Assembly (NCBI GenBank): GCA_903829945.1
Contig: CAIKRV010000025.1
Location: 1-36,845 of the forward strand
Origin: an uncultured bacterium
Lineage (GTDB): Bacteria > Bacteroidota > Bacteroidia > CAILMK01
DNA length: 36,845 nucleotides
Reading direction: 5' to 3'
Shown: one piece after another, positions 32,196 through 36,845 of the stretch
Numbering within the stretch: the stretch's first letter is position 1
How the letters are laid out: every line of letters starts with the position of its first letter
Program-made: the position numbers and the translations under genes
The notes under the pieces: model-generated
What the model saw: the letters and a program-made list of their open reading frames with translations, nothing else
Told to the model about the DNA's origin: nothing
Database searches by the model: none

Positions 32196-32256
32196 TAATA
32201 TTCGATTAAAATGGGTAATTTGACATGTTTTTTTATCTTTAGTGCGGACAAACCTC

Positions 32257-32335
32257 GCTCGCGCGAGAGTTAGCGATAGCGCTCTCGTGTGTTAATAATA
32301 GGGCGGTCTCCGACCGCAAGCTACGAAAAACTCTG
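32257..32335 (+). repeat. Palindromic GC-rich repeat, copy A
   Basis: The core at 32257-32293 (GCTCGCGCGAGAG ... GCGCTCTCGTGTG) is itself partly palindromic. It is followed by GTTAATAATAGGGC, a hairpin GCGGTC-TCC-GACCGC (32303-32317) and AAGCTACGAAAAA. It is nearly identical over the core to the inverse complement of copy B and is related over about 90 bases to copy C at 36432. Confidence 0.85.
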
Positions 32336-32406
32336 CAAAAAATAAAAATAATATTTAACTTGCTTTTGATTTGTAAAAATGGATGATAAGAATCCTTTGG
32401 ATTATT

Positions 32407-32466
32407 GCGGTTAAAAACCGCCTGATTTTGTACACACGAGAGCGCTTCGCTAACTCTCGCGCGAGC
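32407..32466 (-). repeat. Palindromic GC-rich repeat, copy B (inverted)
   Basis: The core at 32432-32466 is the inverse complement of copy A with one base missing. Next to it, at the position equivalent to copy A's hairpin, lies GCGGTT-AAA-AACCGC (32407-32421). A and B thus face each other across about 140 bases as a MITE-like or BIME-like pair. Bases 32467-32693 behind it are AT-rich and show nothing else. Confidence 0.85.
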
Positions 32467-32693
32467 TAAGGACTTGGTGCGAGCGAGGGCCTTTTGTACA
32501 AAAATAAACCACGGATATTTATTTTATTATTAGGACGTCTATAAACATTAAAATCCAAGTGACTTATTTCATAATAAAACTTAAGTTGTTTTTAAGAATA
32601 ATGATTTAGATTACTTACATAATAGGCTTGATAAATTATGAGGTAATATCACTTTGTAAGACTTTCAAAAGGTAAATACAAATTTCTCATAGT

Positions 32694-34898
32694 TTAAAAT
32701 TCGCCCATCATCATTTTATAATGCTCTGGATGCCCCATTTGGGTAAATATCTTTTTAAATACCTCAAAGTATTTATCAACAGTCATATTTTGATGTTCAA
32801 TAAATAAGTCATCAGGGACGCTATGTGACCCGTCATTAATCCAACTTAACAAGGACCTACATATCTCCCGATCTTGTTGGTTATCAAATTTTTTAATCAA
32901 ATCATCATCACCAAATTTGCCTAATATCTTAAAATAGTTTTCTATGATACGACGCATAGTATTTTGAATAGTTATGCCTGAACTATTATCCTTGTTCTTT
33001 AATTCTTGCCACAACAATTCATATGAATTGTGTATCGGGTTTCGCATTCCGAATGATTGAATTGCAGAAACATTATTGTTCCTTCTCAAAATCCAATATG
33101 CTGTATCTCCATTTTCTGGTGTTCTGCCATCCACAAAGGAAACTTCTTTATGGAAATATACATTATGGGTAAGTAGGATCATTTGTTTGATATTTCCTTC
33201 GTTTTTCTTTATTGATTTTATGATTTCCTTAAGCAAAGAGCTTACCACGAAAAGAACATTACTATCTAAGCTGGAAATAGGATCATCTACTACTAAAATT
33301 CTTTCTTCAGTAATAGATTCTTGATTAGTACTTCCTTTAGCCAACTGTAAAAAGTACAGAAATGTAATAAACGTTATCTCTCCTTCGCTCAAAGTAGATT
33401 CTGCAATTGATCCATCTTGTCTTTGAATTTGATACTGATTTATTGCAATTTTTGATGGAACAATTTCAAAGTTAAAAAAGCCATATGATTTAAGAATACG
33501 GTTTATTTCATCTACTGAAGGCTGCACACTTGTAACATTCCTATTTGCATCCTTAAGTTTTTTATCAATATCAAGGTGGCTTTCTATTAAACTTTGATAT
33601 TGCTTTTGAAGCGCACCAATTCCACGTTCCATACCATTTATCTTCCTCCTATATAATTCAATTCCCGCCCTGTTTTCCTCTGCTAAATAATTCCAAATGG
33701 ACTTAATTAAATCCTCTCGTTCTTTTGCGTAATTTGAAACGATGGAATTATGTATATTGATCGCAACATTAGAGGATTCAATAATTTTCTTTATGTTATC
33801 GGCTTGTTCGTTTGATGAGATTAATTCAAAACTTCGACTTGGCTCTTTGATTTTGTTTCCTAGGAACTCTTTGTTTGAGATAAACTGACTTGTTAATGTT
33901 TTTAGGTAAGCGGTAAATTTTTCAACGTTAAGTTTAGTTTCCAAATAATTTTTTTCCGTGCTTTCAATTTGTTGTAAAACATTGAGTAGGTTCTGTACAA
34001 TAAGATTATATTCTGCAGCAAGTTTCTTTACTAATGTTGTATCAATAGTAAATGTTTCATCAAAATAGTTATCTAATTGTTTTTTAAAATCCTTACTTAT
34101 TGTTAATTGCTGGCAAAAGGGGCAGGTTTCATCTTCTTGCAGGTATGATTTGCCTTCAAGAACCCAATCATTCAAATTTAGTTTTTGAATCAATCTTGAA
34201 ATTTCAACATCTGCTTTTCCTAATATTTTTTTACCCCATATTTTATCATTTTCAATTTCAATCAGGCGTTTAAAATCAATTCCTGTGATAAAATTCATTG
34301 CAGTTGGTGCTTCCCCGAAAATTGTTTTTGCCTTTTCTTTTAATTCATCATAAGATTTTGGTTTGGTGATCTTTGTTTGAAACTCCGTAAGAATTTTACT
34401 CTTAAAAGTTTCTTTTTTCATAAAGCCTACAAAAGCTTCCTTAAAATCAGTTTCATACTTTTTATAAATATCTATCCAGACGCTTTCTCTGAATTCATTT
34501 TCGAGCTCCTCTTTTGTTGCTATTAATGTATCTAATGCTACTTTTTTCTTTATCCCTTTATCTTTTAACTCAGCTAAAGCAATTTGCATTTGATTTATTG
34601 CTTCAATTTGTTCTTTAGAGGCTTGACCAAGAGTAAAAACACCCACAATATTGCCCTTCCCAAAATTTCTCTCTCTAAAATCTTTATTATAGACCAAGGC
34701 ATTTATTACTAATCCATTTTGCCAAAGAAGATCACAATCGTCAAATAGGCTTTCTGCTGGCTTGTCAACTAGCTTCGTAATAGTTGTTTTACCGCTTCCA
34801 TTTACGCCATAAATGAAGTTTATTTTCTTTAAACCAGTAATTGCTACACCTTCATTGTCATATGTAGCGACATTTTTTAAAGTGATACTTTCAATCAT
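32694..34898 (-). CDS. AAA_13 / RloC-like ABC-type ATPase with coiled coil and zinc-hook motif
   Basis: A 734-residue protein. Domains in order: Walker A GVNGSGKT (31-38); long coiled-coil arms interrupted by C259-P-F-C262, a zinc-hook-like CxxC; returning arm; ABC signature LSEGE (503-507); Walker B ILVVDDPISSLDSN with D538 and D539; H-loop LLTHN; and a C-terminal helical region with R649-R-I-I-E653 and WINDGSH with H692. This is the AAA_13 architecture that includes the anticodon nucleases PrrC and RloC, whose C-terminal catalytic triad is Arg-Glu-His. Nuclease activity here is inference; the E-to-H spacing of 39 is longer than in PrrC. It lies in a repeat-flanked accessory region, 40 bases downstream of a decayed gene on the same strand. 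A candidate anti-phage gene. Confidence 0.85.
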   Translation of the reverse strand: MIESITLKNVATYDNEGVAITGLKKINFIYGVNGSGKTTITKLVDKPAESLFDDCDLLWQNGLVINALVYNKDFRERNFGKGNIVGVFTLGQASKEQIEAINQMQIALAELKDKGIKKKVALDTLIATKEELENEFRESVWIDIYKKYETDFKEAFVGFMKKETFKSKILTEFQTKITKPKSYDELKEKAKTIFGEAPTAMNFITGIDFKRLIEIENDKIWGKKILGKADVEISRLIQKLNLNDWVLEGKSYLQEDETCPFCQQLTISKDFKKQLDNYFDETFTIDTTLVKKLAAEYNLIVQNLLNVLQQIESTEKNYLETKLNVEKFTAYLKTLTSQFISNKEFLGNKIKEPSRSFELISSNEQADNIKKIIESSNVAINIHNSIVSNYAKEREDLIKSIWNYLAEENRAGIELYRRKINGMERGIGALQKQYQSLIESHLDIDKKLKDANRNVTSVQPSVDEINRILKSYGFFNFEIVPSKIAINQYQIQRQDGSIAESTLSEGEITFITFLYFLQLAKGSTNQESITEERILVVDDPISSLDSNVLFVVSSLLKEIIKSIKKNEGNIKQMILLTHNVYFHKEVSFVDGRTPENGDTAYWILRRNNNVSAIQSFGMRNPIHNSYELLWQELKNKDNSSGITIQNTMRRIIENYFKILGKFGDDDLIKKFDNQQDREICRSLLSWINDGSHSVPDDLFIEHQNMTVDKYFEVFKKIFTQMGHPEHYKMMMGEF

Positions 34899-35270: not shown

Positions 35271-35450
35271 TAAATAAATTTTTAGCCGGATATTAATTAA
35301 AGATTTAAGTAAATAATTTACTTAAAAAATATTATTTGTTTAATTGTCAACCTGTTAACAATATCATTATTTTTGTGTACCCCAATTTAGGGAGCAATTT
35401 TTCCCTGAAAATATTATCATTTCTTTCATTCAGCGCTCCCCTCCCCCTCC

Positions 35451-35482
35451 TTTTTTTGACAACTTCCTAGCCCTTATCGTTA
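35451..35482 (+). promoter_or_regulatory. Shared upstream element, copy 1
   Basis: TTTTTTTGACA (35451-35461), 14 bases, then ATCGTTA (35476-35482), ending 7 bases before the ATG at 35490. The same two blocks with the same spacing stand at 36682-36713 upstream of the second terminase-like gene. It could be a promoter or an operator. Confidence 0.6.
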
Positions 35483-35489
35483 TTCGGGT

Positions 35490-36416
35490 ATGAATGCAGT
35501 TTGTACCGAAATTATTTCCTTATTATCTCAATCTTATGATTTGAGGGAAATTTGTGCCATGGAGCATATTCCCGATTATAATACCGTTTCTATGTGGCTC
35601 AGCAATAGCATGTACAATGATAAATTTGCTGAATTCAGAGCGCATTATGCCGAAACCAAAAAGAACTTATTAATGCTCATGGCGGATGATGTGTATCATT
35701 CTGCGAAACAATTACCCAAACATACTTTTTTAAACACAAAAACAGGAGAGGAAAAAATCCAAACCGGCGTATTGCAGGCACATAAAGAATTGCAAAGTGC
35801 TTATAAGGTACAATTAAGTACTTTTAAAGATTATGGCAAAAGCACCGGCACTGCAAAAAGCAAGGAGGCTCCCCGAGGTCAATTATATAAAGACATGATA
35901 TCATTAGGACATTTTTCTAAATTCCCCATAGAAGAAGAACATTACCGCTACGTCAGCGGAAAACTGGAATTAGCCGTACCCGTCAGCATGGAGCAAGCGA
36001 CAATATTCTCAGGTATTCCTGAAGAAGATCTATTAAAATTAATGCGTCAGGAAATCACCACTTATCAAGGCGAAGAGATTTTAGATAAAGAACATCTGAA
36101 TTGCATTATCTTGCCCAATTTCAAACAAACAGAAATATTGCATCTGAATAAATTTTATCATACCACCGACCAATTAAACAGAGCGCCCCTACCTTCCTGC
36201 ACCGAACTGGAAAACGGTCGCCCGATAGATAAAATAATCGGAGACAATATACACCCGAAATTAGTTCCCTATATTCGGATCGATGATTTAGGATATTATA
36301 ATTATTTAGGCATCAGCAAACGCGACCAGCATTTATACATCATGAGCAGATGGCCCAAAACCGATTGCTGGATCCACAAAACCAATGGCTCCGTGATTTA
36401 TGAACCTTTGGAATAA
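35490..36416 (+). CDS. Protein with an N-terminal phage terminase small subunit-like domain
   Basis: A 308-residue protein. The first 80 residues (EIISLLSQSYDLREICAM, IPDYNTVSMWLS, KFAEFRAHYAETKKNLL) follow the pattern of Sf6-type terminase small subunits, IC..la.G.SLR.IC....MP...TV..WL....F...YA.AR. This is a DNA-binding helix-turn-helix domain that recognises phage packaging sites. The remaining 230 residues are not recognised; VSMEQATIFSGIPEEDLLKL (about 166-185) might form another helix-turn-helix, and the C-terminus (IRIDDLGYYNYLGIS, LYIMSRWPKTDCWI) looks beta-rich. No large terminase or other phage gene is seen, so a domesticated DNA-binding protein is as likely as a prophage remnant. 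A paralogous gene starts 320 bases downstream. Confidence 0.6.
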   Translation: MNAVCTEIISLLSQSYDLREICAMEHIPDYNTVSMWLSNSMYNDKFAEFRAHYAETKKNLLMLMADDVYHSAKQLPKHTFLNTKTGEEKIQTGVLQAHKELQSAYKVQLSTFKDYGKSTGTAKSKEAPRGQLYKDMISLGHFSKFPIEEEHYRYVSGKLELAVPVSMEQATIFSGIPEEDLLKLMRQEITTYQGEEILDKEHLNCIILPNFKQTEILHLNKFYHTTDQLNRAPLPSCTELENGRPIDKIIGDNIHPKLVPYIRIDDLGYYNYLGISKRDQHLYIMSRWPKTDCWIHKTNGSVIYEPLE

Positions 36417-36431
36417 AAATAAGAGGCACGT

Positions 36432-36529
36432 TCGAGTTTAGCGAAGCGCTCTCGGATGTTAATAATAAGGCTCCGCTGCGGCGGATGACCGCAAGCTTCG
36501 AAAAATATACCTCAGATAAAAATATAACA
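36432..36529 (+). repeat. Palindromic GC-rich repeat, copy C
   Basis: It shares with copy A the blocks TTAGCGAAGCGCTCTCG (36438-36454; copy A has one additional base), GTTAATAATAAGGC (36458-36471) and GACCGCAAGCTTCGAAAAA (36487-36505), in the same order and orientation. It lies just behind the terminase-like gene, so this family borders both ends of the accessory block 32257-36529. Confidence 0.8.
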
Positions 36530-36552
36530 TCAAACCTCAGCGAACTTAATAT

Positions 36553-36571
36553 GTTTTGACGAAGTCAAAAC
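36553..36571. repeat. Perfect hairpin
   Basis: GTTTTGAC (36553-36560), GAA, GTCAAAAC (36564-36571). No T run follows, so a terminator role is uncertain; it belongs to the repeat-rich gap 36417-36736. Confidence 0.7.
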
Positions 36572-36620
36572 TCCTCACCTTAGCAAGGGGAGGTGGACGC
36601 GAAGCGGACGGAGGGGATGG
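36571..36620. repeat. GC-rich dispersed-repeat-like sequence
   Basis: CTCCTCACCTTAGCAAGGGG followed by AGGTGGACGCGAAGCGGACG and GAGGGGATGG. It has the look of dispersed intergenic repeats frequent in Bacteroidota genomes, with a short GACGC-GAA-GCG hairpin; only one copy is in the window. Confidence 0.4.
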
Positions 36621-36681
36621 TTATCAGAGCCAGAAACAGTAAAAGAGCAAATAATTATTTATTTACAAAAAAACCTCAAAC

Positions 36682-36713
36682 TTTTTTTGACATTCCTCAC
36701 CCCATCATCGTTA
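36682..36713 (+). promoter_or_regulatory. Shared upstream element, copy 2
   Basis: TTTTTTTGACA (36682-36692), 14 bases, ATCGTTA (36707-36713), the same spacing as copy 1 at 35451-35482. Confidence 0.6.
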
Positions 36714-36733
36714 AGCTATTTATAAACGATGAT
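36704..36733 (+). promoter_or_regulatory. Inverted repeat in front of the TTG start
   Basis: ATCATCGTT (36704-36712) and AACGATGAT (36725-36733) form a perfect 9-bp stem with a 12-base loop, ending three bases before the presumed TTG start. It could be an operator, or an RNA hairpin that limits ribosome access. Copy 1 upstream of 35490 lacks the right arm. Confidence 0.5.
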
Positions 36734-36736
36734 ATT

Positions 36737-36845
36737 TTGAATCGCTATTGTAAAATAATACTAAACGATCTATCTCGGGGGGTGAGCCTATTCGATTTGT
36801 GCGAACGCCCGGGGATGCCTTCGGTTTATGTAGTCAAGCAATGGC
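36737..36845 (+). CDS. Second terminase small subunit-like gene, 5' end only (TTG start)
   Basis: An open frame running off the window end, 36 complete codons from TTG 36737. The product LNRYCKIILNDLSRGVSLFD followed by LCERPGMPSVYVVKQW aligns without gaps to the start of the protein encoded at 35490; I count 10 identities in 36 positions, including the Cys, LS, IC/LC, P, V and W positions. It fits the Sf6-type small terminase consensus even better. TTG is chosen because the alignment puts it exactly opposite the ATG of the first copy and no in-frame ATG exists upstream. Length and C-terminal part lie outside the window. Confidence 0.6.
   Translation, partial: MNRYCKIILNDLSRGVSLFDLCERPGMPSVYVVKQW

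Follow-up and report, generated by a model that had tools for sequence, protein, structure and literature searches.

The window is a complete contig of 36,845 nucleotides (G000:C25) from a genome of 2.91 Mb in 97 contigs; the other contigs of this genome are given below by their C numbers. By its gene content, with PKD and T9SS-type proteins, the organism looks Bacteroidota-like. Two genes, A and B, lie at its end on the forward strand, each preceded by a leader, with palindromic repeats between them. The features are as follows.

35443-36416, + strand: unit A, leader together with gene; 96% identical by blastn to C8:2425-3398 (L007:2425-3398), flanks unrelated
35452-35482, + strand: leader of A; TTTTTTGACA (35452-35461), 14 bases and ATCGTTA (35476-35482), in the order and spacing of the B copies
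35490-36416, + strand: gene A; ATG start, 308 amino acids
35496-35798, + strand: segment of gene A for the Sf6 small-terminase-like domain (residues 3-103; PF20901, E=1.1e-8)
35820-36413, + strand: C-terminal part of protein A, about 200 residues, of no recognisable family
36421-36640, no strand: palindromic repeats between A and B; R1-like at about 36433-36505, R2 at about 36519-36640
36683-36736, + strand: leader of B; TTTTTTGACA (36683-36692) and the dyad ATCATCGTT-N12-AACGATGAT (36704-36733)
36737-36845, + strand: start of gene B; TTG start, 36 codons, then the contig ends within the gene

Upstream of A, a large protein is encoded on the minus strand (32694-34898). Its match to the candidate defence family PDC-S06 is full-length (E=3e-264); a weaker one is to PrrC.

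An earlier note on this DNA had described A and B as tandem paralogues whose first 36 residues align without gaps. The alignment was borne out: it has 11 identities and a BLOSUM62 score of 54, which was reached by none of 200,000 shuffles, and profile-profile comparison extended the homology to about residue 102. With N-termini that are about 30% identical, the two proteins represent two subfamilies and not the products of a recent tandem duplication.

The resemblance to small terminases, also proposed in the note, was seen on profile search. PF20901 (Sf6_terminase) matched A over residues 3-103 with 35.5 bits, above the curated cut-off of 27, and phrog_1482, 'terminase small subunit', matched it with E=6e-7. 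B matched the same families (PF20901 and the PHROG small terminase) more weakly; with PF20901 the fragment in the window gave E=9e-4, and the full-length copy on C76 (L011:9316-10233, minus strand, about 306 residues) gave 21.2 bits, under the cut-off. Sf6 gp1 ranked first for both A and B in a sequence search of the PDB, and phmmer aligned A to the Sf6 gp1 structures with E=0.0035. The five best PDB matches of the AlphaFold model of B were all Sf6 gp1 (probability 0.96-0.99, E 0.0065-0.03). This model has a mean pLDDT of 45 and that of A, at 37, was too poor for use; the fold match of B is therefore taken as supportive. The C-terminal part of A had no significant match in Pfam, PHROG, NCBIfam or PADLOC, in agreement with the note, and no catalytic or transposase domain was found in A or B in Pfam, PHROGs or NCBIfam.

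Whole-genome search revealed at least 11 dispersed genes of the family, in line with the variable multi-copy family that had been suggested. A is present at three loci: the C25 and C8 copies are complete and 97% identical as proteins, and C14 has a 5′ end (C14:40856-40980). B is complete on C76 only; six 5′ ends (C76, C31, C67, C96, C61, C25) and eight 3′ ends (C76, C68, C4, C11, C85, C14, C6, C60) indicate at least eight B loci. Contig ends truncate nearly all B copies, which is what a repeated family that the assembler failed to resolve would give. The reading frames of the copies in this genome are open over the assembled part, from the TTG start on in B. The copies are solitary and intergenic, among ordinary genes identified by eye (dnaA, transaldolase, secreted PKD-type proteins and others). 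The note had seen no phage genes around the pair, and the same holds for the family: no integrase, portal or large terminase (TerL) was recognised, largely by eye, among the open reading frames beside the complete copies and in the readable flanks of the others. The sole TerL found genome-wide, with the PF03237 model only, lies in a prophage on C40, and no family member was found on that contig. Of the findings that the note had named as refuting, a missing profile match is contradicted by that of A, and no large terminase or structural phage gene was seen up to 36845, where the contig ends. The prophage-like region (L179:12743-19006; G000:C40:37742-44005) encodes a CI-like repressor, a sigma-like protein and the terminase large subunit, and runs off the contig end.

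The repeat between the two genes, described earlier as a host-type dispersed repeat, is real. R1/R2 repeats occur at about 23 loci genome-wide, and eight of these lie within 500 bp of an A/B unit, a space that makes up 0.8% of the genome; the locus between A and B, from which the query was taken, is ascertained. Eight further repeat loci are at contig ends. R1/R2 repeats are also present in the window at 32252-32470.

Relatives of the full A and B proteins were not found in phage records or IMG/VR. The N-terminal alignment of B gave only short matches in IMG/VR, 28-54% identical across the helix-turn-helix region, and these are presumably ordinary small terminases of phages. A was found neither in plasmids nor in 60 relatives, and in overlapping samples B was not found in 395 genomes of the class, nor A in 395 of the phylum. 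Neither gene, the N-terminus of B included, was found in a same-genus genome (78% complete) or in two same-family genomes. The place beside the transaldolase gene of C8 was compared as a putative empty site: the same-genus genome has this gene without A, but synteny breaks at the same place. A scan of 84,980 species genomes with B, which reaches close relatives only, gave one contig, L064, from a pond sample. L064 carries two B-like genes and the same dispersed repeats. It belongs to a MAG labelled Methylophilaceae (isolate name Umea2p1), and we infer that it is misbinned and derives from a relative of the organism of the window. In one B copy (L064:992-2300) an R1 repeat interrupts the frame near codon 80; a Fic-family gene and an HTH_3 gene come next, possibly as a toxin-antitoxin pair. 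In the second, TAG occupies the position of the conserved TTG start (L064:2900-2902); this copy is dead or uses another start. At the point of L064 that corresponds to 36677/36678 of the window, an inserted R1 repeat of about 150 bp is also present. From these insertions the repeats appear mobile in that lineage. No literature on solitary multi-copy small terminases was found.

To address the selection acting on the copies, substitution rates were compared. The A pair (C25/C8) has a dN of 0.015 and a dS of 0.16. Among B pairs dN/dS is at most about 0.12 in the N-terminal domain and about 0.1-0.5 in the C-terminal part. The copies are under purifying selection, and the domestication that the note had considered fits with this, although selection is no proof of it. 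These values disfavour decaying prophage remnants, the leftovers of several small terminase genes, as an account of the family. The TerS (small terminase) profile match would be expected of such remnants, and the pond relative does have one repeat-truncated copy and one with a stop at the start position; the copies of this genome, in contrast, are open from the TTG start over their assembled part, have conserved leaders and are accompanied by no other phage genes. An origin of the present copies by decay is very improbable.

Identity among B copies is patchy, with stretches of 100% next to stretches of about 80% or to unrelated alternative tails. The C11 and C6 copies share 111 identical bases adjoining stretches of 83-88%, and the C85 and C60 copies are 100% identical in the tail and 68-78% upstream of it. 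This pattern points to recombination or gene conversion among copies. The edges of the units are sharp. The alignment of the two A copies begins just before CTTTTTTTGACA and ends with the stop codon, with unrelated sequence on both sides, and the C68 and C4 copies of B (dS 0.11) have the gene in common but not the sequence past the 3′ hairpin. A unit thus measures about 1 kb; it comprises leader and gene, to which B adds a 3′ hairpin spanning the stop codon. Either the units were copied whole or old copies were homogenised inside the unit.

Copying of whole units would be explained if each were a minimal mobile element of about 1 kb, inserted between genes by its own protein or by some other enzyme that works on its ends. 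Sharp edges between unrelated flanks at low dS, the solitary intergenic placement, the clustering of the repeats by the units and the lack of units in the same-genus, same-family and other relatives searched are all consistent with it. However, A and B have no catalytic domain that could be found, neither a target-site duplication nor a common terminal repeat was seen, and C4 and C14 have lost the 3′ TTTTTTGACA of B. The same observations would be made if old copies, whose flanks diverged long ago, had undergone gene conversion, and the mosaic pattern of identity speaks for this. The mobile element is considered rather unlikely.

The leaders of A and B have the pattern TTTTTGACA-N14-ATCGTTA in common. 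In B, TTTTTGACA sits within a T-run and is followed by a perfect 9-12-9 dyad that stops three bases short of the TTG start position. All eight B leaders (six here, two in L064) agree fully in TTTTTGACA and in the two arms of the dyad, and vary in spacer and loop. The exact dyad occurs six times in the 2.9 Mb genome, at all six B starts and nowhere else; the next-best sites have three mismatches, which is the control level. This argues against a broad regulon using the dyad. In the A leader there is a single half-site, ATCGTTA, with TTTTTGACA and the 14-base spacing kept as in B. The half-sites of the dyad are 21 bp apart, that is two helical turns; this spacing fits two protein units on one face of the DNA and suggests an operator. 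The dyad also folds as an RNA hairpin (z = -2.6) and may have a role in the mRNA. The 3′ hairpin over the stop codon of B is much stronger (z about -7) and may act as a terminator.

Other elements were tried with the leader sequences and rejected. TTTTTTGACA has 37 sites genome-wide against 11 for the reversed control; of the 30 that were read in context, the ones outside A/B units look like chance, many being apparently coding, and it was not retained as a genome-wide element. A direct-repeat cassette with TTTTTTGACA flanking B on both sides was also dropped, as the 3′ copy is the loop of the hairpin, lost from two copies. The one match of the leader in IMG/VR lies within a gene of an unrelated phage and was taken as chance.

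These results are best accounted for by a family of DNA-binding proteins that derive from TerS, are confined to one lineage and recognise their own leaders, a reading to which we give an even chance. The protein would bind the conserved leaders in front of its own gene and of the sibling genes, with the dyad as the site in B, and would thereby control its own expression, as a self-regulating DNA-binding protein that is domesticated or selfish. DNA packaging is probably not its present role. The DNA targets envisaged in the earlier note find support in the confinement of the dyad to B starts, and the leaders can be regarded as putative sites. Against self-recognition are the poor structure models, the score of B under the Pfam cut-off, the single half-site in A, the possible action of the dyad in the mRNA and the TAG in L064. 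Since the helix-turn-helix of the SF6 small terminase shows little sequence specificity in binding pac DNA (PMC4737164), specific binding follows less readily from the dyad.

A suggestive parallel to the A/B leaders is offered by the pac sites of P22 (PMC9611059) and SPP1 (PMC4737164), which lie in or beside the small terminase gene; that of SPP1 covers promoters and the start of the gene (PMC4737164). The same parallel would suit packaging parasites or decoys, which with a pac-like leader interfere with or redirect the packaging of an infecting phage or the resident prophage. The TerS-like N-terminus, the TerL-bearing prophage in the genome and the PDC-S06 defence candidate upstream of A are in keeping with this. 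So is the variable C-terminus of A/B, as phage TerS proteins vary most at their C-terminus, a region that the TerS of P22 needs to associate with TerL (PMC9611059). On the other hand, no satellite genes (integrase, replication, capsid remodelling) were recognised, largely by eye, among the open reading frames near the copies, the prophage contig C40 gave no TTTTTTGACA site, and the pairing of TerS with TerL is putative. Such a role in packaging is improbable. It is distinctly unlikely, too, that a small-terminase-like protein and its adjacent recognition site form a free-living single-gene unit that multiplies in the chromosome, either by using host enzymes to mobilise itself or by tagging DNA that passing phages would package.

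A family of TerS-derived proteins that is selected, mosaic, solitary and present in many copies with a private DNA site would show the small-terminase fold in another role. How small terminases read DNA is still debated (PMC9611059, PMC4737164), and such a family would also offer natural pairs of protein and site with which to study the question. Like Sf6 gp1 and other PF20901 members, A and B would have an N-terminal region of helix-turn-helix and helical hairpin, as judged from the profile and a tentative fold match, and a gene that adjoins a putative recognition site. Unlike them, they are 306-308 residues long with an unrelated long C-terminus, outside the protomer size of about 15-21 kDa of small terminases (PMC9611059), and occur as solitary genes in many chromosomal copies without an adjacent TerL, portal or other phage gene.

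Small terminases, the subunits by which phage packaging machines recognise DNA, are known as packaging components in phages, satellites and gene transfer agents (GTAs). Satellite-encoded TerS proteins interfere with or redirect phage packaging, and the TerS of PICI/SaPI satellites resembles A and B in being a small-terminase-like protein outside a complete phage; A and B differ in lacking satellite gene content and in their many dispersed single-gene copies. GTA terminases serve a particle gene cluster. A and B share with the GTA small terminase that they are chromosomal, non-phage homologues, but no particle gene cluster was seen beside A/B copies. RAYT genes, which travel with REP repeats, are like A and B solitary genes often flanked by dispersed palindromic repeats; a discrete unit in unrelated flanks, which gene conversion can mimic, is likewise common to A/B, insertion sequences and RAYT-REP. 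Unlike RAYT, A and B have no transposase domain that was found, and the repeats here also occur away from the A/B genes and, in L064, inserted into a related copy.
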